Shown: one piece after another, positions 1 through 51,635 of the stretch | How positions within the stretch are numbered: the first letter of the stretch is position 1 | Layout: the number at the start of each line of letters is the position of its first letter | Source of the DNA: Xylogone sp. PMI_703 | Lineage: Eukaryota > Ascomycota > Leotiomycetes | NCBI GenBank assembly: GCA_021399445.1 | Contig: JAJTUQ010000017.1 | Coordinates: 123,581 to 187,580 of the forward strand | DNA: 64,000 nt | Direction of reading: 5' to 3' | Notes under the pieces: generated by a model | Seen by the model: the letters and a program-made list of their open reading frames with translations, nothing else | Database searches by the model: none | What the model was told of the DNA's origin: nothing | Program-made: the position numbers and the translations under genes

Positions 1-1583
1 ACTAGTCTTTACCTTATTCCTGGTAAAGTAAATCAAAGTCGTCTTGTCTAGCTCGAATATAACTCTGTTATACTTCTCTTACTGTATAGCTTTCTGGATT
101 ACCCCTTCAATTCTAAACCTGTTCACTTCTGCCAACTCTCTTATTACCCATATTGAGTAGTTGTTTACAAACGTTATAAATTCTCCTTTAAAACTCAGTT
201 TATACTATATTAAATCAGTATTGAAGAACAGAAAGAAGATTAAAGATAATAATGACCTTTATAATAACCTAGCCTATAATAATTCTTGCATTTCTGACAT
301 TGTACTATTGACTATTATAATTATTATTTTATTAGAACAAAAAACATCAATCCAGTTAACTATATATTATAGTATTCTGTATATCTTAAGTTTTTACAAT
401 AATCTTTCCTTATACACCTTATTATAAGTTTCTTTTACGTCAAAGCTGATCAGACTCAGTACTTTCTTCTTCTTCTACACATCATATATATATTCTTGTA
501 ATAATACTAGTACTTATTCAGTAGACTATTGCTTTCTAGCCCTAAAGTAATTTATGAATAACAATCCCTAATACTCTGTTATATACAATAACCTTTTTGT
601 TATTACTACTTCTAGGATCTTTCCTAGTATTAATAATAATAAGATTAATCTTTACACTTTAGTTATTACATAATCTCTTTTTTTGGGCTTCTTCAAAGAT
701 ATAATCTTTACGTTTCTCTATTATCTGAGTAATTCTCTTTCTTACAAAGACATTTAAAACAGGTATATAATAATGATTTTTATTACTGGCCAGATTTGTT
801 TCCATATTATAACTTATATCCTATCTTCTCTTAATACTTTCCATGAATTCATATTAAATACTTTTTTTCCCACTTCTTCTACTATTAACTAAGGCATATT
901 TACTACTTACTGTTAACTTTTCTCTTTCTCTTTCTCTATTTCTTCGGGCAGTGAAAAGAAAAATATAATTAATAATTCTTTTGACTGTTCTATTGTACCT
1001 TATGTTGTTATATTATCTTTCTTTTTCAATTAAAGGATTTTGTCGAAAGTTATATTATTATTCATATCTAAGAACTTAAAAATTTGTCATATGTTCTTAC
1101 TTTCTGTCAAAAAGCTATCTTAGTATACTTTCTTTTGTTTATTAATTGCCTTATAATATTCCTTTGTATTATCTTTGGCCCACTTTTCTAACTCTGGCAA
1201 TATACTCCTTCTTCTCCTTTGTACTCTGGCTTAGTTTCTTTAATAAATATATACTTTCCTCAGTTATGTCAAATCGGCTGTCTATTATTGTTTTACATAT
1301 AATGATAGTCTAGCTTTTGGTGTCAAACTCTGGATTATTTCCATTATTATTTCTATAAGTTTATTAATTTATTATTATATATCACCCAGTAATAGTTTAT
1401 TTTATAGTTTCTCTTTAACTCTCTTTCTTATCTTATTCTATAATACTTCTTTTATAAATAATCTTTTTGTCTATAAAGTTTCCAAAGTCTTTAAGTCTAT
1501 AAAGTTTCCAAAGTCTTTAAGTCTATAATCGTCTCTATAACTCAGTAGTCTAAGCTATATTCTGTCTTATGAATATTACACTT
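1..1583 (-). pseudogene. RIP-decayed Tad-like LINE, ORF2 reverse transcriptase part
   Basis: Minus-strand remnant of a non-LTR retrotransposon ORF2. At 157-171 the minus strand reads FVNNY followed by SIWV. This fits the FADDY/FVDDY catalytic motif of fungal LINE reverse transcriptases with both Asp codons changed to Asn, the expected RIP effect (GAY to AAY). About 25 codons on, ELDKTTLIYFTRNK matches the E-x-x-KT-x-LI-x-FTR motif of the same family. Stops are scattered through the frame. The upstream half of this LINE (ORF1 and the ORF2 start) lies at 8891-11150, separated by insertion of gypsy element A. The 3' end of the LINE lies outside the window. Assignment to the Tad clade is by recalled motif similarity, not by alignment. 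Confidence 0.7.
1471..1522. repeat. Perfect 26-bp tandem duplication inside the LINE remnant
   Basis: Two identical back-to-back 26-bp units (1471-1496 and 1497-1522), beginning ctataaagtttcc. The perfect identity inside heavily mutated DNA suggests the duplication arose after most of the RIP decay. Confidence 0.9.
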
Positions 1584-2167
1584 TGTAACGTTCCTACTAA
1601 GATATGGGGTTGTCTATCACTCAAATGATAGACGAAGGTAGAGGGCAAGAGAATAACTTCACAAAGCTTAGGATAGTTATTATGAAATGCAGGTATACTG
1701 TAAATCAATTGAGTTAAGCACGAGGCTCCTATCTATTGTGAAACTATCTACTTATATAATGAGGGTTAATATATTGAGTATATTGGTTATACCCTATACT
1801 CGATATACTGGATATACGCCTTACATGATCACTTATTTGCTAGTACTAACTGTTTGTACATACAAGTAAATAGTTAACATAAGCAGAAAGGTAGTATTAA
1901 TTTCCTGATAATACTATTATCTAGTTAGTACAACCAAAGGGTTAGTACTATCAAAGTTATAATACTATCCTTTAACTTGTACAACCCTTTTATAGTACTA
2001 GTGTTGAACTTGTACTATCCTTTTGCTAGTACTAGTAATGTGATAATACTAGTGATACTATAACCAGGTCTCTGATAATTATCTTAATTTATACTTATTT
2101 AACTAAGGCAACGGCTATGAAAGCCTTATAATCTGGTCATTTGTTACAACCTTGTAAGGTCATAACA
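1584..2167 (-). repeat. 3' LTR of gypsy A
   Basis: On the plus strand it starts TGTAACGTTCC and ends GGTCATAACA. It carries the family hairpin (GTCTATCA, loop CTCAAA, TGATAGAC) near the U5 end and the CTAGTAC/GTACTAG palindromes typical of these LTRs. Confidence 0.92.
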
Positions 2168-2257
2168 TTATCCCTTTCCTAGTTTAACGTCGTCTTAACA
2201 CTTAAAGCTATAACTACGAACTTCTTCCCAAGAACCAAACTTTCCCTTCTTTTCATC

Positions 2258-2833
2258 ATATTACCTAAATATAAGTCTAATTATAAAAAATATATGAGAA
2301 AAAGGAAAATGATAAAGAATTCTGGTTATTTCATGACTTTCAAGTGTTATTACTGTTTTGTTAATAACAAAAAATATTATTACAGTCCTTAATTCATTAA
2401 GTACAACGAATATATTTGTCGGGGTAGAAAATGTAAGTTTAATCCGAACATAGATAAGTTAGAATATTTGGTCGAAGAGGAGGAATATCTTGAATAAAAA
2501 GAGGAAGAAGTCTTGGCCTATGTGGCCCGTCTTCATAAACTGCAAAAGTTGGTCAAGACAAAGAGTCATAATATGATTATTCGAGGCGTTTCTACGATAA
2601 AAAAACTAAAGAAGATCGAAGAACAAGAAAAGAAAGAAGTAAAGGAGAAAGAGAGACTTAAACAGGAATAAAAGGAAAACGAAGCATCATAATAAGCAAA
2701 AACTACCCAGCCAGTGGAGGCAGGGCCCTCTGGGGCCTTCCCCTCCGAGGCTAAGTTACTTACTTATACTGATGTTCTTTTCAATGAAGCCTAGTTAATT
2801 TTATTTATTTATACTTCTCTAAAAGTTCATTAA
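2258..2833 (+). pseudogene. Antisense Zn2Cys6-like ORF of gypsy A (RIP-broken)
   Basis: One frame of 192 codons runs opposite to gag-pol, at the position of the intact 209-residue antisense ORF of element G. The start codon is ATA (from ATG), with about six in-frame stops. Cysteine-position codons keep exact Zn2Cys6 spacing C-x2-C-x6-[Y]-x8-[Y]-x2-[Y]-x6-C: three Cys survive and three are Tyr, as expected from TGT to TAT. A Lys/Glu-rich coiled-coil stretch follows. The tail TTQPVEAGPSGAFPSEAKLL and the last codons KVH-stop align with TTQPAEAGPFEAFPSDADFF and GAH-stop in element G. The conserved frame, spacing and end point argue that it was a real protein before decay. Confidence 0.75.
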
Positions 2834-5800
2834 AATTGGTAAAATATTCTTCTAGTTCTTAAGTATCTAACTATCTATACTCTTCTTATTTTTTTTATCT
2901 GACTAAATATTTTTTCTTATTCTTTACTAACTTATTATTTAAGATTTCCTTGACTTCCCATTTTATATTTAAGTTTTACTCTAACTTTAAATCCAGAGTT
3001 AATAATAATCCTAGGGGTGTTTTCTTTAGTATGGTTACATAAAATATTAAATATATTTACATAATATTAAAGAATTCTAGTTTATATATCAGATTTCCTA
3101 GTTTCTTTTTGATTTTGTATAGTTTAATCTTTTTCTAATCTAATTTATTACTTGATCTTGTCATTTTAATAAATCTACAGATAATATAAACTTTATCCCT
3201 TTCTTCAAGCTCAGGTTTTATATTATATTTTTGATTATAATATTTTTTTATACATTTTTATACAAATTTGATGTTGTACTTCAAGTGATTGTGGATTTTT
3301 TCTAATTTGTTTACTTACTGTTCAGTTATCTTGAAAATGTTTTTTACCTCCACTTTTATGAAGTGGGTTTGAGCTTTATAGCCATAATTCGCAAAGAAAG
3401 GCATAATTTTAGTAGTTTTACTTTTTGTATTATTATACATTAATTACATTATTAATAAGAAATCTTTCTAATTTGACTGTTTATAATTTATATAATAACA
3501 AAAATAAACTTTTATGATCTGGTTAACTTACTTAATCTGTCCGTCTGTCTGAGCCCATCCTTTCGTAATAATTTTCCTTTTGATGCCTAATCTTTTGTAG
3601 ATTACTTCCCAGAATTTTGACGTAAAGAGCTTATCTTTGTTCGAAATAATTTCTGCTAAAATACTATAATCTACTATAACCCTGGAAATCGTGATTTCCG
3701 TTAAATTCTTGGCTATCTACGTTTCTTTTCATGATAACATAATAAAGTACTTCGTAAGTTTATTAATTATAATAAAGATTAAGTTATAATGATCTTTATC
3801 CAGTTCATTAATACTTCTTAATAAGGGTAATCTTATGATAAAATCTTATGAAATAGAAGTCCAAGACTTTTTTGATATCTGAAAAGACATTAATTATCTT
3901 ATAAACTTCTTTCTTGATGTTCTAGCTCTATGACAAATGTTACAGTTATTGACAACTTTAATGACTTCTTGTTAAAGTTTAAAGATAAAGAATTCCTGTT
4001 ATAATTTATTCTTGGTCTTTGTGATTCCTTGATAATCATATATAAATAATTTGTGTTATTCTTTTATGAATTCCTGGGCAATTAATGATAAGATGAATAT
4101 TCTCCTGTCCTTTAGCTAAATGCCTGGAAATTCCTGATTTTTGAGTTAGCCAGCCTCGGGATCTTTAAAGATTTCTTTCTTTTTTGTAATAACTAATTTA
4201 ATCTTTTTTAGTCATTCTTCGTCAATAATCTACATGATTATTAATACTTATATATAATTAAGGTACAAGATGTTACTTTCCTTTTTAAATATAATGAATT
4301 CTTGCTTAAAACTTCCTTCTATATAATCTGGTTACTTGCTCAAAGTATTAACCTTAACATTTTCTGATTTTTAGATATAACAAATCTTGAAATTATATTA
4401 TGTTAACGTTTTGTACCAATATACTTGTCTATTGTTAAAATTTTTAATAGTCATAAAAGTTATTAGATTTTTATAGTCTAATAAAATCTCGAATAAATGT
4501 TTAGTACTACATAAATAAACTTTCTAATACTTACAGTAATCTACGATAGCCAAGAGTTCTTTTTTGTAAATATCATAGTTTAACTTTACTAAAATAAACT
4601 TTCGAAAGTGGAAGGCTACTAGCCTCCAACGTCCTTTGTCATCCTTTTGTGATAAGACTTCATTCAATGCCCTACTTGAGGTATTTGTTTCTAGCAAGTA
4701 TGGTTTCTTGAGATCAATATAGGCCAATATTCAGTCTTCATCGAACTGATCTTTAACCTCTTGAAAGATTCTCTCCTGTCTCTCTTCTCAAACAAAAAGT
4801 ATATCTTTTTTTGTTAATTCTGTTAATAAGTTGGTTATTTTTGAGTAAGTCATTATATAATATTTATAATAATTAACAAGTCCATTAAACTGCTGGACTT
4901 CTTTAACCATTCTTGGAATAAGTTATTCTTTAATAATTTTCATTTTTTCTAGGTTTATTCAGAATCTTTTGTCCAAAACTATTTTACTTAGAAATTTTAT
5001 TTTTGTCATATTAAACTAATATTTAGCCAGCTTACACTTCATGTTGTTATTAATCAATACCTTAAATACAACATAAACATATTACTTATATTCTTCTAAC
5101 ATCTTAGAATAAATCAAGATGTTATCTAAATATATTATTATAAAATAATCCAAATATAATCTCAAAATTATATTATTCATTTTCTGTATAATTATTAGTA
5201 TATTTGTTAAATCAAAAGGTATGACTAATAATTTATAAAGTCTATATTTAGTTCAAATAACAATATATGACTCATGTCTTTCCTTGATCCTTATTAAGTT
5301 GAATCTTGTAGTAAAGTTTAATTTCGTGAAATATTTAGCTTTAATGAATATATTTTGTATACTGTCAATATAAGGTAATAAATATCTATTTTTTATAGTT
5401 TTACTGTTTAAATTTCTGTAATCTCCATATAGTCTTCTCTGGGGATTGTCTAGCTTTAATACTTATATTAATAGTACTCCTCACGAAAAGCTCGATTCTC
5501 TGTAGAAGCTCTTCGTGGTCTGTTCATCTAGTCACTCTCTCAGGATCTCATCCCTAGCAAGATTCGTTCCATAAATAAATCTATATAAAAAGGTTATACC
5601 TTCTTGGAGAATGATTTCATGGTCTTATTCTTTGTGTAAAGATAAAATTATATCTTTTGGTCATAAAGTAAATAACTTACGACAGTCTTAGTATTCTTCC
5701 GGGAAAGTGTTTAGTTTATTCTAGAAGTCATCCTGAGTAAGTTCAACAGTAAAAACATCTTATGTAAGTTATTCTTTTGGTTTAATATTATAATAATATT

Positions 5801-8890: not shown

Positions 8891-11150
8891 CACTTGATTA
8901 TATTCTTCGTTATCTCGTTAAACATTAATACTAAATTAATTATTAACTTTTGGTCTCCTCGTTATTATATTTTAATTCTTCTTGGTAACAAGTTTTATAG
9001 TTTATACTTATTCATCAATTTAATAATAAAGTTAACTTTTTCTTATCTGGCCAGTATGATTTTGTCGCCTCTTTATAACTAGTTATACTTGTTGAAGTTT
9101 TTTATCATTACTGTCTTTATTATTTCTTTAACTTTTTTCTGTACTGTTTAAATTGCTTTTTGTATTTCTCTGATTCCCTTGTCTAATGCTTTTCTATTTA
9201 CTGGCTCTATATATACTATTATAGTCAAAACTTTACAGGTTTGTAACTAAAGGATTACTGTTATAATATCCAGTGATTCTACCGGAATTTGCTCAAAGTC
9301 AATGTCACTTTTAACCTATAACATACTACAAATCTTCTACCTCTTTTCGTTAAACTTTATAAGTATTAATTTACTTTAATTCTTATATATATTTGATGTA
9401 ATAATAAATCTTCCTTTTGTTTTCTATACATATAATTCTAATATTATTATAATCCCAAAATCTTGTAAACTCTTGTTATTCATTAAATTGTACTAAATAA
9501 CTTTCTGTTTTCGTACATTTAATTATAATATTTTTAAACTCTTATTCATATCATAAAAAATAAAGAATATAATAGGTTAGATTATATAATTCATATAAGT
9601 CTAAGTATAATATATATTTAAATATTTACGATTAATAATTACTATGTTAGTACTTTACATTAATACACTTTTTACATTTTTGTAATTTCTTATAATTAAA
9701 AGTTTTATGCCTTAATTCTTGACAATTATAACATTACTTTACCCTGTCCCTTTATTCAAAAGGACAAATATAGGCTGACTCTTTAGTTACATGAAAATAA
9801 TTCTTACATAATAATCTATCAGCTTCTTCTCGTTTTATTACATATATTACCATTAAGTTATATATTTTCTTTATATCTCTTTTACTTAATCATATAATCT
9901 TCACAATATTAACATTATTCTTTCTCCTTAATTTTTCTACTATATTAAGTATTAAACTATTATCTTCGTTAATTATTACTGCTCAGTTTATGTTATTTAC
10001 CTTTATTAGGTAAAATTAGTCTTAGAGTACTTATAGTCCTCTGATCCCTGAGCTTTCTACTATCTCTTTCACCTTCTCGAGTTCTGCTTCATTTTTACAG
10101 ACAATCTTGATTCTTCTCTTATTTCTAACGTCTCAAATTATTGCCATACATCTCCAGTTATCCTGGTTTATTGCTTTTCAGACTTTTTCTTCAATAACCT
10201 TTCTTATGAACCCTGGTTATATCTTCGGTTGGTCTTCCTTGTTAATCTGTATAATGTTGATTATACAATATACCAGTTCTACCCTGACAATCTTTAGGCT
10301 TACATTGTTTAGTTAACTTGCTGATGATAAGAGATTTACTGACTATAACAACATTACTGAGTATGACAATATTAAAAGGTTGGTGGTTAGAGTTATTCCT
10401 CCTCGTACATTAGTACTTAAGTTAAAGGACATTTCTAGTAATTAGATATTTATTTCCGTCAACTGTATTTTCGTTTCTGTAAGTTAGTTGTTAGTCTCTG
10501 CTAATTATGTTTTCGTCTCTGTAATTTAGTTATTGGTTTCTGTTAATTGTGTTTTCGTTTCTGTAAATTGGTTATTAATCTTTGTCAATTACTTTTTAGT
10601 TTCCTCTAGCTGTCCGCTGATATTGCTCATTTGTGCCTTGGCTTGCTCTAGTTATCCTTTTAGTTCTCTAATCTTCAGTTTTAAAGCTTTATTTAACTTA
10701 TATATCTTTTTCATTGTTTCTAGTACTATCTCCATTGCTTGAGCTTCCTTGTCTTTCTTAACTCTCGGTCTCTTCTTTGTTATTACTGATGTTATTATTC
10801 TTTTTACTATGATAACTAAGACTAGTGTTGTTGTATTAAATACCACAATTGTTTTAGGTGATCGGCCTCTTCCTTGTTTTACTGTTCCAGTTAAAGTGTT
10901 CTGGAAGAATTCCCCGTCTTCTAGATCTTCATTCTCCTTATTTTCCCTGGCTTTTGACGACGCTCTCGGTTCTCTCCTAAGTCTCCCTCCTAGACCGCCA
11001 TCTTCCTCTATTGCGCTCTCCGGTCGTAAGCAGTACCCTTACCTGGCTGTGTTGCCCTATACCTACCCTATACAATTCTCCCAATTGGTCTTGCTTGCCG
11101 TATTTGTCGTAGTTTCTATATTATCCCCGCCACTGCCACTATAAATTGTC
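8891..11150 (-). pseudogene. RIP-decayed Tad-like LINE, ORF1 (gag-like) and start of ORF2
   Basis: Minus-strand continuation of the LINE split by gypsy A. In one frame from about 11010 it reads an acidic N-terminal part (EDLEDGEFFQNTLTGTVKQ) and a basic segment KKRPRVKKDKEAQAMEIVL (within 10652-10846). A long heptad-type coiled coil of repeated LTETKTQ-like units follows. Near 10020-10150 it reads VRLVCKNEAELEKVKEIVES-type sequence, which I recognise from fungal LINE ORF1 proteins. Stops interrupt all frames. The 5' boundary is not visible; 11150 is an estimate. ORF2, beginning around 9.4 kb, would continue at 1583 after removing element A. Confidence 0.6.
10443..10610 (-). repeat. 42-bp degenerate tandem repeats encoding a coiled coil
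   Basis: Three to four imperfect units of about 42 bp (14 codons, two heptads) recur, recognisable by the phrase tttcgtttctgtaa. On the minus strand they read LTETKTQLTETNN-like heptads within LINE ORF1. The period is a multiple of 21, so heptad phase is kept. Confidence 0.75.
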
Positions 11151-13834: not shown

Positions 13835-14441
13835 TGTAACGTTCCTACTAGGGTATGGGGTTATCTATCACTCAAATGATAGATGAAGGTAAAGGGCAAG
13901 AGAATAACTTCACAAAGCTTAGGGTAGTTACTATGAAATGCAGGTATGCTGTAAATCAATTGAGTTGAGCACGAAGCTCCTATCTACTGTGAGTTCTATC
14001 TACTTATATAGAGAGTGAATTTCCTTCGAGTCCCATTGATCCCATCGATCCCCCTGGGGATCCATGGGATCCATGGGATCCGCTTATCTAATCCAGGTGC
14101 TCGCTTAATCGCTAGTACTAGCTTTTTACACGTACGAGCAAATCGCTAGCACAAGCGGAAAGGTAGTACTATTTCTCCGATAGTACTACCACTTAGCTAG
14201 TACAACCAAAGGGTTAGTACTATAATTCCGATAGTACTATCCTTTAGCTTGTACAACCCTTTTTATAGTACTAGTGTTGAACTTGTACTATCCTTTCGCT
14301 AGTACTAGTAATGCGATAGTACTAGCGATACCATAACCAAGTCCCGGATAGCCGTCTTAACTTATACTTATTTAACTAAGGCGACGGCTATAGAGGCCTT
14401 ATACTTTAGGTCGCTTGTCACAACCCTGCGGGGTCGTGACA
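13835..14441 (-). repeat. 3' LTR of gypsy G
   Basis: 607 bp. It contains a minus-strand TATATAAG box near 14003-14011, several GTACTAG/CTAGTAC palindromes, and a U5 hairpin ATCTATCA-CTCAAA-TGATAGAT at about 13864-13885. An inverted CGG-N4-CCG site is at 14345-14354. It lacks the 22 transition changes seen in the partner LTR. Confidence 0.95.
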
Positions 14442-14455
14442 CTATCCCCTTCCTA
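14442..14455 (-). other. Polypurine tract of gypsy G
   Basis: Minus strand aggaaggggatag lies immediately before the 3' LTR (TGTCACGACC), the expected plus-strand primer site for reverse transcription. The same purine run precedes the 3' LTR of element D (aggaaggggatag) and, in mutated form, element B. Confidence 0.75.
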
Positions 14456-14531
14456 GCTTAGCTTCGTCCCGGAGCTTATAACTAGGACATGGAAGACCTC
14501 ATAACAATCCAAACCTTCCTTCCTTTCCATC

Positions 14532-15161
14532 ATGTCCCCTAAGCGTGGACTTGAACAAAATTATAGCGAAGCCGTACGGAAACGAAAGAAGGAAGCCTTG
14601 CCAAAATTATCGGCCCGTGTTGAAGATACTGGGATCAAAATGTCTCCTTGTAGTAGATGCGAAAAGAAAAAACTAACGTGTTGGGTCGCTCCAGATTCGT
14701 TGAGATGCTCGGAATGCATCAAGGCAGGCAACAGCACGAAATGTGATGTTCATGGCCCTTCAGCTGCCGATTGGGAGGCGCTTAGTCGCGAGGAGCGAAA
14801 ACTTTCGGAGGATTGGGAGAAGGCCAACTCCTTGTGGTTGGAAACCCAACAGAAGGCCATCGAGGCTCAGGCAAAGGTCCTTCGCCTTAACAAACAGCGT
14901 GAAATGTTCAGGACACGCGCAGCTGAGATGCTTCGTCGGGGTCTGAAATCGCTGGACGAACTAGATGCTGTTGAGGAGAAAGAGAGGCTCGAGAAAGAGA
15001 AGGAAAAGGAAACGCCGCAACAATCGGAAACTACTCAGCCGGCGGAGGCTGGGCCTTTCGAGGCTTTCCCTTCCGACGCTGATTTCTTTGCTTATGCCGA
15101 TGTTCCGTTCGATCCGTCCTGGCTTGCTTCGCCCGTTCGTACTCCTCCAGGAGCTCACTAG
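14532..15161 (+). CDS. Antisense ORF: small Zn2Cys6 coiled-coil protein carried by gypsy G
   Basis: 209 residues, opposite to gag-pol, between pol and the 3' LTR; ATG in context catcATGTCC, 91 bp from the LTR. Cys at 40, 43, 50, 59, 62 and 71 give C-x2-C-x6-C-x8-C-x2-C-x8-C, within the fungal Zn(II)2Cys6 (Gal4-type) consensus. A basic stretch (RKRKK, 16-20) could be a nuclear signal. Residues 80-165 are charged and heptad-like, probably a dimerising coiled coil. The tail DADFFAYADVPFDPSWL is acidic/aromatic, like an activation segment. The last 131 bp overlap the pol C-terminus tail to tail. Decayed homologues sit at the same place in A, B, D and E. A DNA-binding role is inference; I know of no characterised homologue. 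Confidence 0.8.
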   Translation: MSPKRGLEQNYSEAVRKRKKEALPKLSARVEDTGIKMSPCSRCEKKKLTCWVAPDSLRCSECIKAGNSTKCDVHGPSAADWEALSREERKLSEDWEKANSLWLETQQKAIEAQAKVLRLNKQREMFRTRAAEMLRRGLKSLDELDAVEEKERLEKEKEKETPQQSETTQPAEAGPFEAFPSDADFFAYADVPFDPSWLASPVRTPPGAH

Positions 15162-17859
15162 AGTTGGTAAGGTGTTCCTCTGGTTCCCAGGTGTCTAACC
15201 ATCCGTATTCTTCCCATTCCTTCCATCTGACCAAGTATTGTTTCTTGTTCCTTACTAACTTGTCGTCTAGGATTTCTTCGACTTCCCATTCCATATTTGG
15301 GTCCCATTCCAGCTCTAAGTCTGGAGCTGGCGGCGATCCAAGTGGTGCTTTTTCTAGTACGGCTGCATGAAATACTGGGTGTATTCGCATGGTGTTAGGG
15401 AGTTCTAGTTTATATGTCAGATTTCCCAGTTTCTTTTTGATTTTGTATGGTCCAATCTTTTTCCAGTCTAATTTATCGCTCGGTCTTGTTGTTTTGATAA
15501 ATCTGCGGATGATATAAACTTTATCCCCTTCTTCAAGCTCAGGTTCCATACTGTGCTTTTGATCGTAGTATTTCTTCATGCGTTCTTGTGCGAATTTGAT
15601 GTCGTACTTCAAGCGATTGTGGATTTTTTCCAATTCGTCTGCTCGCTGTTCAGCCGTCTTGGAAATGTTTCTTACCTCCGCTTTTATGAAGTGGGTTTGG
15701 GCTTCGTAGCCATAATTCGCAAAGAAAGGCGTAACTTTAGTAGTTTCACTCTTTGCGCTATTATACGCTAGTTGCGCCATTGGTAAGAGATCTTTCCAAT
15801 TTGACTGCTTATAATCCACGTAACAGCGAAGATAGGCTCCTATGATCTGGTTGACTCGCTCGGTCTGTCCGTCTGTCTGAGCCCATCCCTTCGTGGCGAT
15901 TTTCCTTTTGATGCCTAATCTCTTGCAGATTGCTTCCCAGAATTTCGACGTAAAGAGCTTGTCTCTGTCCGAAATAATTTCTGCTGGGATGCCATGGTCC
16001 GCTATGACCCTGGAAATCGTGATTTCCGCTAAATCCTCGGCCGTCCACGTTTCCTTCCATGGCAACATGATGGAGTACTTCGTAAGTCTATCGACTATGG
16101 TGAGGATTGAGTCATAGTGATCTTCATCCGGTCCGTTGGCACTTCTTGATGGGGGTAATCCTGTGATGAAATCCCATGAAATAGAAGTCCAAGGCTTTTC
16201 TGGTATCTGAAGAGGCATTAATTGTCCTACAGGCTTCTTTCTTGATGTTCTAGCCCTGTGACAAACGTTGCAGTTATTGACGACTTTAGTGACTTCCTGC
16301 TGGAGTTTGAAGATAAAGAATTCCCGTTGCAGTCTGTTCTTGGTCTTTGTGATTCCTTGATGACCATGCGTGGGCAATTCGTGTTGTTCTTTCACGAACT
16401 CCTGGGCGATTGATGGTGGGATGAATACTCTCCCGTCCTTCAGCCAAATGCCTGGAAATTCCTGATCTTCGAGCCAGCCGGCCTCGGGATCCTTAGAGAT
16501 TTCTTTCTCTTCTGCAGTGGCTAACTTAATCCTTTCTAGCCATTCTTCGTCAATAACCTGCGTGACCGCTAATACTTGTGCGTGGTTAAGGCGCAAGGTG
16601 TCGCCTTCCTTTTTAAACATGGTGAATTCTTGCTTAGAACTTCCTTCCATGTAGTCTGGTCGCCTGCTCAGAGCATCGGCCCTAGCATTCTCTGATCCTT
16701 GGACATGGCGAATCCTGAAATCGTATTGTGCTAACGTTTCGTACCAGCGCACTTGTCTACTGTTGAGATCTTTAGTGGTCATGAAGGTTGTTAGATTCTT
16801 GTGGTCCGATAGAATCTCAAATGGATGTTTGGCACCACATAAGTAAACCTTCCAATGCTTGCAGCAATCTACGATGGCCAAGAGTTCCTTCTCGTAGATG
16901 TCATAGTTTAACTCTGCTGGAATAAACTTTCGAGAGTGGAAGGCCACCGGCCTCCAACGTCCTTTGTCATCCCTTTGTGACAAGACTCCACTCAACGCCC
17001 TACCTGAGGCGTCTGTTTCCAGTAAGTATGGTTTCTCGGGATCGGCATGGGCCAGTATTCGGTCTTCGTCGAACTGATCTTTAACCTCTTGGAGGGCTCT
17101 CTCCTGCCTCTCTTCCCAAACGAAGGGTGTATCTTTCTTCGTTAATTCCGTCAACGGGCCGGCTATTTTCGAGTAAGCCGTCACGTAACGTCTATAGTAA
17201 TTGGCAAGTCCGTTAAACTGTTGGACTTCCTTGACCGTCTTTGGAGTAGGCCATTCTCTGATGGCTTTTACTTTCTCCGGGTCCATTCGGAATCCTTTGT
17301 CCGAAACTATTTCACCTAGGAATTTCACTTCTGTCGCGTTGAACTGGCACTTAGCTAGCTTACACTTCATGTCGTTATCGATCAATGCCTTAAGTACAGT
17401 ACGAACGTGCTGTCTGTGTTCTTCCAACGTCTTGGAATAAATCAAGATGTCATCCAAATACACTACTACAAAGCGATCCAAATACGGTCTCAAGATCGTA
17501 TTGCTCACTTTCTGCATAGTCGCTGGTGCATTCGTCAGACCAAAAGGCATGACCAAAGGCTCATAAAGTCCATACTTGGTTCGAATGGCAGCGTACTGCT
17601 CGTGTCCCTCCTTGATCCTTATCAAGTTGAATCCTGCGGCGAAGTCTAATTTCGTGAAATATCTGGCTCCAATGAGCACATCTCGTATACCGTCAATACG
17701 AGGTAATGGGTATCTGTTTTTTATGGTTTTGCTGTTTAAATTTCTGTAATCTCCACATGGTCTTCCCCGGGGGTCGTCTGGCTTTGGCGCCCATATCAAT
17801 GGCGCTCCCCACGAAGAGCTCGACTCCCTGTAGAAGCTCTTCGCGGTCTGTTCATCCAG
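15031..17859 (-). CDS. pol of gypsy G: RT, RNase H, integrase, chromodomain
   Basis: The frame is continuous with gag-PR, downstream of the UGA at 17860-17862. The first ATG is at 17799, but residues encoded upstream (LDEQTAKSFYRESSSSWGAP) belong to the RT N-terminus, so readthrough is the likely route. Counting from that Met: RT has LDFAAG (51-56) and YLDD (114-117). RNase H has ETDAS (261-265). Integrase has a His-His-Cys-Cys zinc site (H473, H478/480, C510, C513) and DDE residues D543, D611, E647. A chromodomain (WEVEEILDDK to ELLEEYE) is at about 838-888, followed by a basic tail encoded opposite the antisense ORF. All catalytic residues are intact, so this copy could be active. Confidence 0.93.
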   Translation of the reverse strand: MDEQTAKSFYRESSSSWGAPLIWAPKPDDPRGRPCGDYRNLNSKTIKNRYPLPRIDGIRDVLIGARYFTKLDFAAGFNLIRIKEGHEQYAAIRTKYGLYEPLVMPFGLTNAPATMQKVSNTILRPYLDRFVVVYLDDILIYSKTLEEHRQHVRTVLKALIDNDMKCKLAKCQFNATEVKFLGEIVSDKGFRMDPEKVKAIREWPTPKTVKEVQQFNGLANYYRRYVTAYSKIAGPLTELTKKDTPFVWEERQERALQEVKDQFDEDRILAHADPEKPYLLETDASGRALSGVLSQRDDKGRWRPVAFHSRKFIPAELNYDIYEKELLAIVDCCKHWKVYLCGAKHPFEILSDHKNLTTFMTTKDLNSRQVRWYETLAQYDFRIRHVQGSENARADALSRRPDYMEGSSKQEFTMFKKEGDTLRLNHAQVLAVTQVIDEEWLERIKLATAEEKEISKDPEAGWLEDQEFPGIWLKDGRVFIPPSIAQEFVKEQHELPTHGHQGITKTKNRLQREFFIFKLQQEVTKVVNNCNVCHRARTSRKKPVGQLMPLQIPEKPWTSISWDFITGLPPSRSANGPDEDHYDSILTIVDRLTKYSIMLPWKETWTAEDLAEITISRVIADHGIPAEIISDRDKLFTSKFWEAICKRLGIKRKIATKGWAQTDGQTERVNQIIGAYLRCYVDYKQSNWKDLLPMAQLAYNSAKSETTKVTPFFANYGYEAQTHFIKAEVRNISKTAEQRADELEKIHNRLKYDIKFAQERMKKYYDQKHSMEPELEEGDKVYIIRRFIKTTRPSDKLDWKKIGPYKIKKKLGNLTYKLELPNTMRIHPVFHAAVLEKAPLGSPPAPDLELEWDPNMEWEVEEILDDKLVRNKKQYLVRWKEWEEYGWLDTWEPEEHLTNSSELLEEYERAKQARTDRTEHRHKQRNQRRKGKPRKAQPPPAE

Positions 17860-17862
17860 TCA
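17809..17862 (-). promoter_or_regulatory. Putative stop-codon readthrough signal (UGA-CUG plus stem-loop)
   Basis: In element sense, gag-PR ends at UGA (17862-17860) followed by CUG. Thirteen nt downstream an 11-bp stem, CCGCGAAGAGC with GCTCTTCGTGG (one G-U pair), encloses a 16-nt loop (plus-strand 17809-17846). The frame continues without any other interruption into RT. The stop is conserved in copies A, D and E (TGA CTA, TGA CTA, TGA CTG) and is TAA in B. The stem is recognisable in each. UGA with a 3' CUA/CUR and a downstream structure is a known readthrough context; its use here is inferred. Confidence 0.65.
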
Positions 17863-20400
17863 CTCCCTCAGGATCTCATCCCTGGCGGGATTCGTTCCAT
17901 AAATAGGTCCATATGAAGGGGTTGCACCTTCTTGGAGAATGATTTCGTGATCCCATTCTTTGTGTGGGGGTAAAGCTGCGTCCTTCGGTCGCGGAGTGAA
18001 TAACTCACGACAGTCTTGGTATTCTTCCGGGAGAGCGTCCAGTTTATTCTGGAGGTCATCCTGAGCAAGTTCAACAGCAAAAACATCTTGCGCGGGCCAT
18101 TCCTTTGGTCCAGCGCCGCAGTGGCATTTAAATGTCAATTTCTTTGTTTTCCAGTTGACGTTTGGGTCATGGAATTCTAACCAAGGTTGTCCCAGGATGA
18201 TATCTTCCTTTCCAAGGGAGGAAACCTCAAACCGGATTTGTTCTTGGTGGTTTCCAATCCTCATGGTGAGGGGTTTAGTTCTTGCGAACACTCCTTCCTT
18301 TGCTAATGAGCCGTCGGCCATTCGTAGGGGCCGATTATAGACTTCAGTCTGTGCGTCTATCATCCTAGCAGCTCGTGGCGAGATTAGGTTAATCTGGCTT
18401 CCCGAATCCACTAAGGCTCTAAGGTTTCCGTTGCCAAACTTAACATCCAACCGGATGGCTTCTCCTTCGCCAACTTTAAACACATCGGAAGCGAATTCCG
18501 TATTGAACTCCTCCTCCCGGGTCATTTGAGGCGGTGCCCTTCTCCTGGGTTTTCTGATATTGAAGGGGTTATTGACACGTCTAGTTGGAGTCATCCATTC
18601 CGTGTCGATCTCGTAGTAATGGCCTATTCCATAACCATAAAGTTGTTCCCTTCGTTCTTCGCGGAAGGTGATGCCTTGGCGAGGTTCTCGTCGTGCCCAG
18701 TACGTTTTTTCCTCGTCCTCATGGTACGCAACCCACGCGTGGGAGTCCAGTCTTGGGGGCCGCATGTTTTTCCCTAGTACATAGACTACAGGATCATCGT
18801 GGAGCAGGCCACTAACAGCGATTTTTTCGAAGTTGGTCCACACCACTCTTACGATCATTCCCAGCTTCCAAAAACTGTACTGGAGAATTCCTTCTCTTTG
18901 GATCGGCATATCCCACAAGATATTTCGCTCGATCATCCTCCAGGTTTCTATGTGATTTCCATCGGGCAAGGTGGCCATGCTAACCAATATCATTCGCTCT
19001 CCTACTTGGGGTTGGTTCGTCAGGTAAGGCTGGGCGATGAAATCTTCTCGCTCGACATGTTTAGACAGCTCTGGACCCCAGACGTTTTTCTGAAAAGATT
19101 CCTTTGCTATTCTTTGGTAAGGTTCTGACTCTTTAGGTGTTGTGTATGGAGAATACACTGGTGAAATTCTGGCACGTTTCTTTCCTTTTTTGGAGTTCCA
19201 TTTAACTTTTCCAAACGCTGGTTCGCTGACATCCGTCTCCATGCTATAATCTTCCCGGATCATAGGGATTCCTCCGTACACAGGCTGGTTTCCCAAACTC
19301 GAGAGGCTGGCAGTATCCCAGTATTCTTCAGGGGGAAAATTGTCTGGGAGAGCGGTTCCCGAGTCCCGTCGCTCTCCTTCTTCCGCAGCTGATATTAAGA
19401 CATCCAGCTTGCTCGTGGTTGGAGAGAAAACTCCTGAAGACGTCTGGCTCCCTGCCTCGTTGTCTTCTGCTGACCATACCATGGATACGGTCTTGACTTC
19501 TTTGGACTTTCCTTTGTCTTTGTCACCATGCTCCGAGGCCCTGTGTCCTGCCTGGCCACACCTGAAGCAAAGGTTTTTCTCTCTTCGTTCCTTATATTGC
19601 TCAGGAGTAAGATCGAACTTCTTCTTTCCTTTTCCTTTGGTGTTCGATTTCCCGTTCCTCTTGCTTCCCGTGAGTGCCTTCACATCCGCTGTTTCTTTTT
19701 TCTTATGGGATCCTTTTTGCTCTTTTTTGTCGGAGAAAGCCCTTTTTTCTAGCTTGCGTTCATAATGTCGATTATCAAACTGAACAGCTTTATAGATCAT
19801 ATCGCTCAGGGTTTTGGGCCTTTCGTCGAGTCGGGCAATGTCGTCCTTTACTTCTTCCTTGAGGCTGTTGTAAAAGGCATCCTTCAAGTCTTCATCGCTA
19901 TAAGTCGTAAGGACAGCGTATCTTCTGAATTCTGCTGCATGGTGGGAGGCCGAGCCCTTTTGTCGGATGCTGTGTACTTTTCTTTTAGCATCGGCCACTT
20001 CATTGATATCACCGAAGACGGGCGTGACCTCTCTCCAAAAGTCTTCAACGGACTTAAACAATTGTTTTGTGGAGGCCCAACAATGGGTCTTGTCTGTCGT
20101 GGATAAATAGTTTTCAAGGTAGGGTCTCATCCAATCGAAGGCAGTTCCTTCTAGGTAGGAGGCGATCCAAAGGATCCGGTTGACGTCGTCGGCAAACCGA
20201 TCCTTATTAAAGAACAAGTACAGGGTAGCTTGCATCTTGAAGACTTTGAACTTGCTTCGTTCACCCTTGAACCTCATGGGCAAGCCCACCTTTGGGGTTC
20301 TTTCCACTTCCTGTTCTCGCATTGGGGTGTCTCGTTCCTCCGGGTTGGGGTTGCCCTGTTCCTCCGGCTTGGGAATTAAGTCTGAAGATTCTCCGGCCAT
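17860..20400 (-). CDS. gag-protease polyprotein of gypsy G
   Basis: The ATG at 20400 (ACCATGGCC, a good start context) is chosen over an upstream in-frame TTG at 20427; it gives 846 residues ending at the UGA at 17860. The capsid-like region lies in about the first 230 residues. A zinc knuckle CFRCGQAGHRASEH (C278, C281, H286, H291) has His instead of the usual fourth Cys. An unusually long middle region (about 300-640) has no domain I recognise. Protease has LVDSGSQINLIS (Asp 665). The last part (HEIILQEGATPSYGPIYG) is the start of the RT fold, so the stop falls inside RT rather than at a domain border. The frame is intact. Confidence 0.92.
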   Translation of the reverse strand: MAGESSDLIPKPEEQGNPNPEERDTPMREQEVERTPKVGLPMRFKGERSKFKVFKMQATLYLFFNKDRFADDVNRILWIASYLEGTAFDWMRPYLENYLSTTDKTHCWASTKQLFKSVEDFWREVTPVFGDINEVADAKRKVHSIRQKGSASHHAAEFRRYAVLTTYSDEDLKDAFYNSLKEEVKDDIARLDERPKTLSDMIYKAVQFDNRHYERKLEKRAFSDKKEQKGSHKKKETADVKALTGSKRNGKSNTKGKGKKKFDLTPEQYKERREKNLCFRCGQAGHRASEHGDKDKGKSKEVKTVSMVWSAEDNEAGSQTSSGVFSPTTSKLDVLISAAEEGERRDSGTALPDNFPPEEYWDTASLSSLGNQPVYGGIPMIREDYSMETDVSEPAFGKVKWNSKKGKKRARISPVYSPYTTPKESEPYQRIAKESFQKNVWGPELSKHVEREDFIAQPYLTNQPQVGERMILVSMATLPDGNHIETWRMIERNILWDMPIQREGILQYSFWKLGMIVRVVWTNFEKIAVSGLLHDDPVVYVLGKNMRPPRLDSHAWVAYHEDEEKTYWARREPRQGITFREERREQLYGYGIGHYYEIDTEWMTPTRRVNNPFNIRKPRRRAPPQMTREEEFNTEFASDVFKVGEGEAIRLDVKFGNGNLRALVDSGSQINLISPRAARMIDAQTEVYNRPLRMADGSLAKEGVFARTKPLTMRIGNHQEQIRFEVSSLGKEDIILGQPWLEFHDPNVNWKTKKLTFKCHCGAGPKEWPAQDVFAVELAQDDLQNKLDALPEEYQDCRELFTPRPKDAALPPHKEWDHEIILQEGATPSYGPIYGTNPARDEILRE

Positions 20401-20429
20401 GGTACCTTCGAGTTTCAAGGTGTTCAAAG

Positions 20430-21036
20430 TGTAACGTTCTTACTAAGGTATGGGGTTATCTATCACTCAAATGATAGATGAAGGTAAAGGGCAAGAGAAT
20501 AATTTCACAAAGCTTAGGGTAGTTATTATGAAATGTAGGTATACTGTAAATCAATTGAGTTGAGCACGAAGCTCCTATCTACTGTAAGTTCTATCTACTT
20601 ATATAAAGAGTGAATTTCCTTCGAGTCCCATTGATCCCATCGATCCCCCTGAGGATCCATGGGATCCATGGGATCCGCTTATCTAATCCAGGTACTCGCT
20701 TAATCATTAGTACTAGCTTTTTACACGTACGAGCAAATCGCTAGCACAAGCGGAAAAGTAGTACTATTTCTCCGATAGTACTACTACTTAGCTAGTACAA
20801 CCAAAGGGTTAGTACTATAATTCCGATAATACTATCCTTTAGCTTATACAACCCTTTTTATAATACTAGTGTTGAACTTGTACTATCCTTTCGCTAGTAT
20901 TAATAATGCAATAGTACTAGCGATACCATAACCAAGTCCCGGATAGCCGTCTTAACTTATACTTATTTAACTAAGGCGACGGCTATAGAAGCCTTATACT
21001 TTAGGTCGCTTGTCACAACCCTGCGGAGTCGTGACA
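20430..21036 (-). repeat. 5' LTR of gypsy G, with RIP-type changes
   Basis: 607 bp, equal in length to the 3' LTR. My reading of the two finds 22 differences, all transitions, always with T or A in this copy. The minus-strand TATA box (TATATAAG) near 20600 would start the genomic RNA. The LTR ends CGTTACA, 30 nt before the gag ATG. The leader has no TGG-type tRNA primer site. Confidence 0.93.
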
Positions 21037-30500: not shown

Positions 30501-32033
30501 AAGGTTTTTTATTAATTCAAGGATATATAATACTTTTGTAAGTGTTATAGGTTATATATAACTTTTTACTTTTATCTATAAGGATATTATTCCTTGGTTA
30601 ATAACTTTTAATTTGAGTTTATTCATGATTAATATCTTGATAAGTATAAAGAGTCTAATGTAGTCTCTGAAAACTTCTTAGCAGTATATTATATAACAAG
30701 ATGTTCTAAAATTAATGACTTATATTAACTTTTCAGATTAAGGTTCTATAGAGTTATTAATAATAACTTAGTTTGTCTTTATAGTTATAGTTATATTAAT
30801 TATATTTTCAGCTTTAGTATTAGTTTTGCTTTTAGTAAGGGTAAGTAAAAGTCTTATATTATTATTGTTAATCTCATTTTTGGTATTCTTTTTGTCCTTT
30901 TTACACTTAAAGTAATCCTTTTTCATATAACTTGTTTTATTATAATAATAATATTTTCTAGTAAACTTTAGTTTCTTGCCTCTTTTTCTAGACTCTAAAA
31001 TACTAACTTTTAAAGCCTTTTCTTTAAGAGGCTCTTTAGGCTTAAACCGGTGTTCTATATTTATTAGCTTTTTTATTATTAACTTGTAATCTTTCTTTAT
31101 AAAGCTTTTTATTTCTAACTATAAGATCAAGGAGTTAAATTGTTTATTAATATCTTTAAAGGTCAGGAATAAGGATAATAATTTAATATAGTTTATAAGC
31201 TTCTCCTTAGGCTTAATCTCCTGTCACGACCCCGCAAGGTTGTAACAAGCGACCTGATTATAGGGCCTCCATAGCCGTCGCCTTAGTTAAATAAGTATAA
31301 ATTAAGACGGCTATCAGGGACCTGGTTATGGTATCGCTAGTACTATTGCATTACTAGTACTAGCGAAAGGATAGTACAAGTTCAACACTAGTACTATAAA
31401 AGGGGTTGTACAAGCTAAAGGATAGTACTATTGAAGTTGTAGTACTAACCTTTTGGTTGTACTAACTAGGTGGTAATATTATCGGGAAATTAGTATTACT
31501 TTTTCGCTTGTGCTAGTTATTTGCTTGTACGTGCAGATAGCTAGTACTAGCAAATAAGCGATCATATGAGGCGTATATCCTGTATATCGAGTATAAGGTA
31601 TAACCAATATACTCAATATACTAACCCTCACTATATAAGTAGATAGTTTCACAGTAGATAGGAGCCTCGTGCTCAACTCAATTGATTTACAGCATACCTG
31701 CACTTCATAGTAACTACCCTAAAGTCTTGTGAAGCTATTCTCTTGCCCTTTACCTTCATCTATCATTTGAGTGATAGATAACCCCATACCCTTGTAGGAA
31801 CGTTACATCTCCTTTATTTTGGCCTGTAAAGCGTTTAGTTCAATGTTAATAATAAGTACTAAGGCCAGAGAGTCTGTTTATAAAGATTTATAAGCCATGA
31901 AAATTTGTAGCTTAATACTTAATTATTTTATATCCTTAAGAATACTTATAACTTTCAAAACTTCTTATTACTTCTTAATTATATACTTTTAGAAGATTTT
32001 AGTTAATATATTATAATTATAAGAAATAATAAT
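27514..32033 (-). pseudogene. Polyprotein of copia C1, RIP-decayed
   Basis: Minus-strand order from the 3' end. RNase H has SMAESEYIALAEASKQ near 27940-27990, and an MVTDILTKPLQLQKF-type ending is near 27690. RT has ISLYINNIM with YINN at 28616-28627, where copia RT has YVDD (both Asp to Asn by RIP), then KDLGKVKSILGLRI. Integrase C-terminal part (29628-29831) has LTNTYLLVKFWENIVYITCY. A zinc knuckle near 30920-30960 reads YYYYNKTSYMKKDYFK, expected Cys now Tyr. Stops in every domain. The gag part continues to 32033 past the solo LTR. Confidence 0.8.
31222..31807 (+). repeat. Solo gypsy LTR inserted in copia C1
   Basis: Starts TGTCACGACCCCG and ends GGAACGTTACA (586 bp), with a perfect target duplication TCTCC at 31217-31221 and 31808-31812. 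It resembles the LTRs of element A (585 bp) and is less RIP-mutated than the surrounding copia. The single LTR with matching flanks shows deletion of the internal part by LTR-LTR recombination. Confidence 0.93.
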
Positions 32034-32591
32034 TGTCATAACTCTGTAAAGTTGTAACAAACGACCTAGTTATATAATCTTTATAGTTATTACCTTAATT
32101 AAATAAGTATAAGTTAAGACAATTATCAAAGACCTAGTTATAGTATTATTAATATTATCATATTATTAATATTAACGAAAGGATAATACAAATTCAACAT
32201 TTATATTATAAAAAAGATTATACAAATTATAAAATAATATTATCGAAATTGTAATATTAATCTTTTGGTTATATTAATTAAATAATAATATTATCGGAGA
32301 AATAATATTACTTTTCTACTTATGTTAATTATTTACTTATATATATAAAAAGCTAATATTAATAGATTAAGCAAACACTTAGATTAGATAAACGAATTCC
32401 ATAAATCCCATAAATCCTCAAAAAATCAATAAGATTAATAAAACTCAAAGAAAATTTATTCTTTATATAAATAAATAAATTTATAATAGATAAAAAATTT
32501 ATACTTAACCTAATTGATTTATAATATACTTATATTTTATAATAAAATTTTATAGATTAAGTTTTATTTATTCTTTTAACTTCTTAAGTTT
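32034..32591 (+). repeat. 5' LTR of gypsy F, first part
   Basis: Very AT-rich LTR aligned over its length to the gypsy LTR family; interrupted just before the U5 hairpin by element B after agttt. The missing end is found at 60352-60393. Confidence 0.85.
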
Positions 32592-33234
32592 TATTATAAC
32601 CTTATAGGGTTATGACAAGTGACTTGAGTATAAGGCTCTTATAGCCATTGCCTTAGTTAAATAAGTATAAGTTAAGACAGCTATCAAAGACCTGGTTATA
32701 GTATTGTTAATATTATCGTATTATTAGTATTAGCAAAAAAATAATATAAATTCAATATTAATATTATAAAAAAAGTTATACAAACTAAAGGATAATATTA
32801 TCAAAGTTATAATATTAATCCTTTAGTTATACTAATTAAGTAATAATATTATCAAGGAAATAATATTACTTTTCTGCTTATGTTAATTATTCGCTTATAT
32901 GTACAAAAAGTTAATACTAGCAAATAAGTAAGTATATGACAAAAAGGACTAGATAAGATTCCTTAGATCTAGGACCAGATAGGATTTCTTGGATCTAAGA
33001 CTAGATAAGATTTCCTGGATCCAGGAACGGAGAAATCCAGGAGGATTCAGTCATTAGTATATATTATATAAGTAGATAATTTTACAGTAAATAAAAGTTT
33101 CATGCTTAACTTAATTAATTTATAATATATTTGTATTTCATTATAAAATTCTACAATTTAAGTTTTATTTGTTCCCTTGGCTTCTTAAGCTTATTATTTA
33201 AATAATAACTAAATCCTAATATAAGAATGTTATA
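32592..33234 (+). repeat. 5' LTR of gypsy B
   Basis: Starts TATTATAACCTTA (mutated TGTCACGACCCTG) and ends GAATGTTATA, 643 bp. Near the end the U5 hairpin has become the perfect palindrome ttattatttaaataataa. The middle holds three near-repeats of a gatccaggac-like motif (about 32948-33040). Confidence 0.85.
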
Positions 33235-43090: not shown

Positions 43091-43565
43091 GAATAATTTC
43101 TGCCTGTCGGAGTGTTTCTTTTTCCTTCTGTTCTTGATCAAGTTTTTCTTTTTCCTTCTTAACATCTAATTTATCTAAAGTACTAAACCCTCTCCGGAGT
43201 ATCTCACCAGTGCAGGACCGAAGTTGTTGTTGTTATATATCAAGTCTAAGAAATTTAGCTAAAGCCTCCTTGTGATCAGCCTTTAACCAGGCTTTTTTAC
43301 AGGCTATCCTGTCTTATTTCTCAGAACTTAAAAGAAGAGTATCACATTTCGTATAGCCTCCGGCTTTTATGTATTCTATGTAGTAACGAGAACTTTTCGC
43401 TATAATATAATCTAGTTTCTTCCTTTTATAATATGAACACAAGAATAACATCAAAATTTCTGTGGATTTAATTTGAGAATACAATTTACTGTAATTTTCA
43501 GTTGTCAGAACCTTTTACCTTTCTAAGTCAATAAACTCTTCATTAACTGAATACTTTGAGGATAT
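42966..43565 (-). pseudogene. Antisense Zn2Cys6-like ORF of gypsy D (RIP-broken)
   Basis: A single frame of 200 codons including stop, antisense to pol; start ATA (from ATG). The cluster reads CSYYKRKKLDY, then RYYIEYIKAGGYTKC. First and last Cys are kept and the four others are Tyr at exactly the positions of Cys 4, 11, 20 and 23 in element G, numbering from the first. ILRRGLSTLDKLDVKKEKEK matches MLRRGLKSLDELDAVEEKER of G. The tail SSDVNFLIYTNILFDLSWL and the end VHTPPGAY-stop match G's SDADFFAYADVPFDPSWL and VRTPPGAH-stop. Few stops considering the level of decay. Confidence 0.75.
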
Positions 43566-51006: not shown

Positions 51007-51635
51007 ATGTCCCTTAAGTGTGGACTTGAACAAAATTATAATAAAGCTATACAAAAACGAAAGAAGGAAACCTTGCTAAAATTATCAATTTATGTTAAAG
51101 ATATTAAGATCAAAATGTTTCTTTGTAATAAATACAAAAAGAAAAAACTAATGTGTTAAGTTGTTCCAGATTCATTGAAATACTCAGAATACATCAAAGC
51201 AAGTAATAACATGAAATGTGATATTCATGGCCCTTTAGCTATTGATTAAGAAGCGTTTAGTCACGAAGAGCAAAAACTTTCGGAAAATTAGGAGAAAACT
51301 AACTTCTTGTGGTTAGAAACTTAACAAAAGGTTATTGAGGTTCAGGCAAAGGTCTTTCGCTTTAACAAATAATGTGAAATGTTTAGGACATACATAACTG
51401 AAATGTTTCGTCAAAATCTGAAATCGTTGGACAAACTAAATGCTATTAAAGAGAAAAAGAGGCTCAAGAAAGAGAGAAGAAGGAAATATTATAATAATCA
51501 GAAACTACTCAGCCAGCGGAGGTTAAGCTTTTCGAGGCCTTCCCCTCTGACACTGATTTCTTTGCTTATATCAATATTCTGTTTAATCTGTCTTAACTTA
51601 CTTTGCCTGTTTGTACTCCTCCAAAAGTTCATTAA
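51007..51635 (+). pseudogene. Antisense Zn2Cys6-like ORF of gypsy E (RIP-broken)
   Basis: ATG kept (MSLKCGLEQNYNKAIQKRKK), clearly the ORF of element G. The cluster reads CNKYKKKKLMC-stop and KYSEYIKASNNMKC, with Tyr at three Cys positions and unchanged spacing. In-frame stops stand at Trp codons. The total length is 629 versus 630 in G, so there is one single-base deletion. The end reads CTPPKVH-stop. Confidence 0.8.

Follow-up and report, generated by a model that had tools for sequence, protein, structure and literature searches.

What function could an intact gene have that lies antisense to gag-pol, next to the 3' long terminal repeat (LTR) of a retrotransposon? This question is raised by a Ty3-type chromovirus in the window, i.e. 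in the stretch of 64,000 nucleotides of the Xylogone sp. PMI_703 genome that was analysed here, where the intact open reading frame (ORF) of 209 codons opposite to gag-pol that the first-pass annotation had claimed is found exactly (Table 1). The answer that we favour, at a probability of roughly two in three, is that the product of this ORF regulates transcription of the retrotransposon in a self-specific way and would be matched with an operator array in the element's own LTR promoter. The central observation is that two deeply divergent islands, the ORF and a promoter patch in the U3 region of the LTR, stay matched across shared DNA.

Outside its overlap with pol, the ORF clusters into discrete alleles. 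Distances were counted in purine/pyrimidine (RY) coding, which hides repeat-induced point mutation (RIP), and the set consists of 64 entries that were left after eight of 72 had been dropped by name as duplicates or fragments; genomic copy C9:166549 is present twice among the 64, as L053 and as the window copy, and only the window entry has a scorable patch. Allele 9, the type of the window copy, comprises 17 entries, allele 8 comprises 23 and allele 7 nine, and the rarer alleles are 5, 6, 4 and 1 with three entries each, 2 with two, and 3 with one. Entries of allele 9 lie at RY distances of 0-0.01 from the window copy, those of the other alleles at 0.145-0.29. The neighbouring pol of alleles 9, 8, 7, 6, 5 and 2 shows RY differences of only 0-0.011, six entries excepted: the pol of L044, L046, L021, L057 and L059 is of the main type for the first 200-900 bp and is then replaced by other sequence; in L026, no pol of the main type adjoins the ORF. 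For allele 2, the evidence for its presence on the main pol consists of 900 bp in L060 and 200 bp in L059, and alleles 4, 1 and 3 belong, where they can be placed, to more distant pol families. When L041 (allele 8) is compared with L035 (allele 7), the rounded RY difference is 0% in all 200-bp bins from sense position 600 to 5600 and 1-2% in the last two pol bins, followed by 18, 22 and 16% in the ORF and by 2-6% in the LTR bins of the promoter patch. RIP damage was rejected as the source of the allele differences, as RIP-like changes are transitions and the differences counted are transversions. The N-terminus of gag (element sense ~650-1150) is also variable, with three strongly diverged types in 11 elements, but these types reassort with the ORF alleles (one type accompanies alleles 5, 7, 8 and 9, and a second one alleles 5 and 9), and gag variation was therefore rejected as an explanation of the cassette.

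Within the LTR there is a single variable patch, at sense positions ~307-457 of 607; it comprises the TATA box (432) together with its upstream flank. The type of this patch, clustered without use of the ORF, matches the ORF allele in all 44 scorable entries of the 64; these belong to alleles 5-9 and have an LTR that could be aligned over a sufficient part of the patch, and alleles 1-4 are not among them. One patch type is common to 16 entries of allele 9 and 16 of allele 8, and alleles 7 (six entries), 5 (three) and 6 (three) have types of their own. Between the patch and the ORF, a U3-distal stretch of ~300 bp differs by only 1-2.5% in RY coding between alleles and by 0.4-1.2% within them; in allele 5, the leader beside the ORF start is diverged as well. 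As the patch follows the allele while the stretch between the two differs so little, the ORF and the patch must be regarded as matched islands. The copies are related by descent, so that shuffles and per-copy counts overstate independence, and the independent units number about nine, the allele types.

What varies in the patch is a repeat array, the units of which were named by eye. In the intact LTR, GATC occurs at positions 362, 371, 380, 392 and 401 and nowhere else, which places the array ~30-70 bp upstream of the TATA box. Across the 64 entries, a GATC-GATC distance of 9 bp was counted 70 times, and the next commonest distances, 17 and 19 bp, 19 times each; GATC-N5-GATC occurs 17 times in the window (0.29 expected), with 15 of the 17 in LTR-like sequence, and the triple 9-bp GATC pattern occurs 115 times genome-wide versus six times for the reversed control. 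The array unit is GATCCCATG in alleles 8 and 9, GATCAGT with its complement in allele 7, GGATCC with GGTCC in allele 6, of the GGATCC type in alleles 2 and 3, and GATCATTAA in allele 4, while allele 1, from a distant pol family, has GGWCC at the same place. Allele 5, in which the loop of the cysteine cluster described below is clearly altered, has a 9-bp GTATATC array and no GATC array. A long GATCCCAAT array at G000 C6:192736-192829 and shorter ones at C3:117966-117987 and C6:62791-62812 suggest further array types beyond those assigned to an allele.

The 9-bp lag is the top lag in seven of the nine types, and the median shuffle p is <=0.021 in eight of them (0.0008 for the intact copy), with type 6 failing the test (p 0.34). 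These values come from the third version of the test, in which the patch was cut by LTR alignment (by hand at the TATA box for alleles 1-4) and the test window was chosen after the arrays had been seen. With a wide patch, where a single example copy stood for each type, the test is weak (shuffle fractions between 0.01 and 0.75), and with an automatically located patch it is weaker than the quoted one (median p 0.06 to 0.34 for alleles 5-9, the promoter being misplaced in allele 7). Over the nine types, the distance between ORF alleles correlates with the 5-mer distance between their arrays (r 0.35, p 0.0045), but the correlation is not significant over the six types that have the same pol (r 0.46, p 0.11). 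Alleles 2 and 3, which lie on the main pol and on a distant pol, respectively, have related ORFs (RY 0.14), allele 3 being the nearest one to allele 2, as well as related arrays (cosine distance 0.30).

Could this co-segregation be a matter of linkage only? In that case, the U3 arrays would be enhancers for host factors, the protein would do something else, and the two would co-segregate through their adjacency at the RNA 3' end, where a single template switch can carry both. Several points speak for this explanation. ORF and patch are only ~400 bp apart on the RNA, and the reassortment of ORF alleles with the N-terminus of gag, which is ~5 kb away, is no fair control for such a distance. The Podospora element crapaud, for which only gag and pol are drawn in the relevant part of PMC10787394, likewise has a diversified U3 directly before the TATA box. 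Alleles 2 and 6 have similar arrays (0.27) without having close ORFs (RY 0.24), which argues against a strict rule. On the other hand, the intervening U3 stretch must have been homogenised or shared, given its low divergence next to the deep divergence of ORF and patch, and among the 44 entries no mismatched pair of ORF and patch was found. The arrays also stay in place and mostly preserve the 9-bp step when the unit is a different one, and one array is common to alleles 8 and 9, whose cysteine clusters are almost identical. We consider linkage alone to be the main rival, albeit an unlikely one.

That the ORF is a gene is clear from its homologues and its position. It starts 90 bp from the 3' LTR, and its final 43 codons overlap the end of pol tail-to-tail in antisense orientation (131 nt). 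A protein search in a public set found 30 homologues, including some labelled Lachnellula arida, Hymenoscyphus albidus and Botrytis cinerea. In its own genome the ORF has 124 matches, nine of which, including the four identical copies, are without a stop within the match. The first-pass annotation had proposed to ask whether such hits always lie antisense between pol and the 3' LTR, and in this genome a scored pol match lies within 2 kb of 98 ORF matches, of which 97 are indeed antisense and 3' of pol; the single exception is at a crowded place, and the pol concerned has a different ORF copy closer by. These figures refer to 104 scored pol matches out of 269 candidates, with 26 of the 124 ORF matches lacking a scored pol in their vicinity and 16 of the 104 scored ones lacking a paired ORF match. 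Three further copies of the antisense gene in the window, all with stops, lie at ~2273-2850 (+), 42969-43502 (-) and 51007-51632 (+) and belong to alleles 5, 7 and 9. A chance antisense frame of pol was rejected, as most of the ORF lies outside pol and as homologues and a codon constraint of its own are found for it.

The antisense ORF is under purifying selection, and this in its own frame even inside the pol overlap. As RIP-like transitions dominate, only transversions were counted, and copies were compared within this genome rather than between related genomes. The transversion ratio of nonsynonymous to synonymous changes (N/S) is 0.34 overall (63 matches at 60 loci, where the locus pairs L005/L042 and L029/L041 each stand for the same copies and an identical copy of allele 9 makes up one match) and ~0.2 between the two commonest alleles; it reaches 0.98 in a single match with only six transversions and otherwise up to 0.8. 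For pol as positive control the ratio is 0.17. A ratio near 1 had been named in advance as an argument against a functional gene, and neither the 0.34 nor the ~0.2 obtained within this one genome comes near it. Among the 17 columns with fixed differences inside the pol overlap, 11 fall on position 3 of the ORF codon, which is position 2 of the pol codon, and three each on the other two positions (frame arithmetic done by hand), so that in the overlap the antisense frame is better kept than that of pol. Together, the transversion ratio and the position-3 bias argue that it is the protein, and not the RNA alone, that is selected.

What kind of protein is it? Zn(II)2Cys6 domains of fungi have the spacing C-x2-C-x6-C-x(5-12)-C-x2-C-x(6-8)-C. 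The window protein has cysteines at residues 40, 43, 50, 59, 62 and 71, exactly C-x2-C-x6-C-x8-C-x2-C-x8-C, which fits this pattern (PF00172) and bears out the spacing claimed in the first-pass annotation; all six are kept in 26 of 29 aligned homologues. The accompanying claim of a fungal Zn(II)2Cys6 signature holds for the spacing but not for the PF00172 score, which is 11.8 bits for the window protein (P0001) at a Pfam gathering cut-off of 21 bits. Of eight homologues scanned singly, one passes the cut-off (P0020, 21.8 bits), and 23 of the 29 match PF00172 at E values up to 1. We therefore use the label Zn2Cys6-like and do not file the protein as a member of PF00172. In a profile comparison with PDB entries, the best match of the family is PUT3 and the next among the activators is HAP1/CYP1, both being weak matches, and the family can be aligned with 13 host Zn2Cys6 domains with all six cysteines in register (E 3.2e-4, but a probability of 38.7%). 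Foldseek and VIA gave no significant fold match, and a scan of IMG/VR with the family alignment returned 205 pattern stretches and no relative. AlphaFold2 predicts helices at residues 78-136 and 141-160, the first of which agrees with the coiled coil noted earlier, and a low-confidence tail from about residue 160 (mean per-residue confidence, pLDDT, 85.5; predicted template-modelling score, pTM, 0.55). The tail is acidic and aromatic, as had also been seen before (FEAFPSDADFFAYADVPFDPSWL). Judged by its sequence, the ORF thus encodes a divergent Zn2Cys6-like, putatively coiled-coil protein, which would be expected to bind zinc and DNA and to dimerise. The DNA-binding regulator of the first-pass annotation is, in this form, likely.

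The mechanism that we propose would begin with expression from the antisense strand, starting from a putative promoter in or near the 3' LTR. The Zn2Cys6-like cluster and the coiled coil would make the product a dimeric DNA-binding protein, whose predicted target is the array of repeats that precedes the U3 TATA box in LTRs of the family to which it belongs. Array binding would then most likely turn on gag-pol transcription, with the acidic-aromatic tail as a likely activation domain, and it is because of this tail that, if the protein is a regulator, we regard an activator as its probable form and repression or copy-number control as a distinctly weaker candidate. With slightly better than even odds, the system as a whole would consist of interchangeable cassettes, each made of an antisense zinc-cluster activator and its cognate U3 array of mostly 9-bp step, which are swapped as a matched unit on a near-invariant pol and give rise to self-specific groups like the immunity types of phages. 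New specificities would arise, or be recruited, as such regulator-array cassettes onto the same gag-pol core, and what drives their diversification may perhaps be escape from titration by the many dead copies acting as decoys, or from silencing.

Repression deserves to be considered in its own right, although it is a sub-case of the regulator reading and its odds overlap with those of the latter: the protein would bind the same array and, in the manner of a phage repressor, silence the family that encodes it. The place of the array immediately upstream of the TATA box would suit repression as well, and the modules resemble the immunity regions of lambdoid phages. However, the tail that is selected within the pol overlap fits activation, and the gene is intact in the most recently mobile copies, which makes this variant rather improbable. 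Less probable still is that the protein, by binding the array, labels the DNA or RNA of its own element for some other step, e.g. targeted integration, packaging or shielding against silencing. There is RIP-like mutation of repeats in this genome, and the VANC proteins of VANDAL transposons, as described in passages of PMC5735166, bind tandem motif arrays and remove silencing. In the intact LTR, however, the array is found only at the core-promoter side of U3 and GATC is absent from the rest, which points to transcription. Finally, a function of the antisense RNA instead of the protein, e.g. as double-stranded or small RNA with pol, for which one may adduce the tail-to-tail overlap and the Botrytis LTR retrotransposon BcGypsy3, named as a small-RNA source in a passage of PMC8365987, is highly improbable in view of the constraint on codons inside and outside the pol overlap and of a protein kept in 30 homologues.

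The element itself has the Pfam domains of a Ty3-type chromovirus, including the chromodomain PF00385, in agreement with the first-pass annotation. Four near-identical copies in the 50-Mb genome encode the identical 209-residue protein, and the ORF, whose absence from other active copies would have spoken against a function, is intact in all four. Three of these (C12, C21 and C25) show no difference from each other across their 7202 bp; each has identical LTRs and is flanked by a perfect 5-bp target duplication, so that this chromovirus family must have been mobile until very recently. Relative to them, the window copy has 28 C-T or G-A changes, all RIP-like and all within the initial 1.2 kb of the element, and, unlike the three, it shows no 5-bp target duplication.

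Table 1. Positions in the window of the chromovirus, its antisense gene and the proposed regulatory sites
Feature	Position	Strand	Basis or remark
Antisense gene (BRTN-like regulator, putative), 209 aa	14532..15161	+	
Zn2Cys6-like cluster, residues 40-71	14649..14744	+	sequence
Predicted long helix / coiled coil, residues 78-136	14763..14939	+	AlphaFold2
Acidic-aromatic tail, residues 167-209	15030..15158	+	antisense overlap with pol C-terminus
TATA box of 3' LTR, TATATAA, LTR position 432	14004..14010	-	motif by eye
Five GATC units, steps 9, 9, 12, 9, upstream of TATA box in 3' LTR; proposed operator	14038..14080	-	
Corresponding GATC array in 5' LTR, upstream of gag-pol	20633..20675	-	
Whole chromovirus element, 7202 bp	13835..21036	-	LTR pair and comparison with three other copies
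3' LTR, 607 bp	13835..14441	-	adjoining polypurine tract GGAAGGGGATAG on the - strand
5' LTR, 607 bp	20430..21036	-	22 differences from 3' LTR, all C-T or G-A (RIP-like)
pol: reverse transcriptase (RT), RNase H, integrase, chromodomain	15031..17859	-	
gag and protease	17860..20400	-	terminates at in-frame TGA 17860-17862

The in-frame TGA that ends gag-protease is followed by CTG or CTA and separates it from RT in all four near-identical copies; in an alignment of 11 elements belonging to several types, the same stop is TGA in 10 and TAA, as by RIP, in the remaining one. From the sequence, a programmed stop-codon readthrough at this junction is likely. Elsewhere in the window, LTR-like stretches with 66-84% identity to the window LTR lie at 31222-33212 and 59749-60319, outside the four ORF-bearing elements, and a degenerate repeat with 21-bp steps lies at 10442-10603, outside the element.

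Is such a system new? Zhao et al. 2011 (Virology 417:248) reportedly described brtn as an antisense gene of Boty-like retrotransposons in Botrytis cinerea. Passages of PMC8365987, PMC7264820, PMC4227169 and PMC5987419 cite or use brtn of Boty elements, and as a gene in the same position is thus already in print, the suggestion of an undescribed system made in the first-pass annotation does not hold in that form. Both genes lie antisense between pol and the 3' LTR of a fungal LTR retrotransposon, here of the gypsy type, as is asked of a BRTN gene; the comparison with brtn is by description, and a Botrytis cinerea protein (P0027) is a homologue with 39% identity over 79%. The passages on brtn in the four papers mention no zinc cluster, allele swapping or LTR arrays, and in the literature searched, the scope of which did not extend to the 2011 brtn paper, no allele swapping or matching LTR arrays are described for these elements. 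The evolution of the antisense gene, with alleles that co-vary with a promoter array, therefore appears to be undescribed so far.

Other known systems are alike in part. In the passage of PMC7264820 that treats them, the aORF-3R genes of the plant elements Grande1, RIRE2, Retand and PvRetro13 are likewise extra antisense ORFs between pol and the 3' LTR, likened here by position only, and their function is given as unknown. The crapaud element, according to the parts of PMC10787394 that describe it, is fungal as well, has a chromodomain, shows 14 subfamilies of the U3 part before the TATA box and is subject to RIP, but it differs in that its LTR subfamily is little associated with the internal region. 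HBZ, the antisense bZIP factor of HTLV-1, is in outline also an antisense-encoded regulator of the DNA-binding type in a reverse-transcribing element, with another fold and another host. We know of no allele or operator swapping for HBZ. In the immunity regions of lambdoid phages, regulator and operators vary as a block between homogenised flanks; these are repressor-based modules of bacterial viruses, and the likeness is a functional analogy only. As an analogy, too, the VANC/VANDAL system of Arabidopsis is the closest working one: according to PMC5735166 and PMC10398659, a sequence-specific protein encoded by the transposon and its short target motifs, arranged in tandem in the transposon's own non-coding DNA, change together. 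VANC, however, is encoded in a plant DNA transposon, acts in anti-silencing and has been shown to bind directly, whereas the element described here is a Ty3-type LTR retrotransposon with an antisense gene, a promoter-proximal array and predicted binding. The co-variation implies that each allele predicts its own DNA-binding site, a testable answer for one family. If the proposed mechanism is true, it could explain the diversification of U3 in fungal elements and would provide a natural set of zinc-cluster proteins with differing specificities and matching operators, and these elements would form, among eukaryotic retroelements, a counterpart to the VANC system and to the immunity groups of phages.
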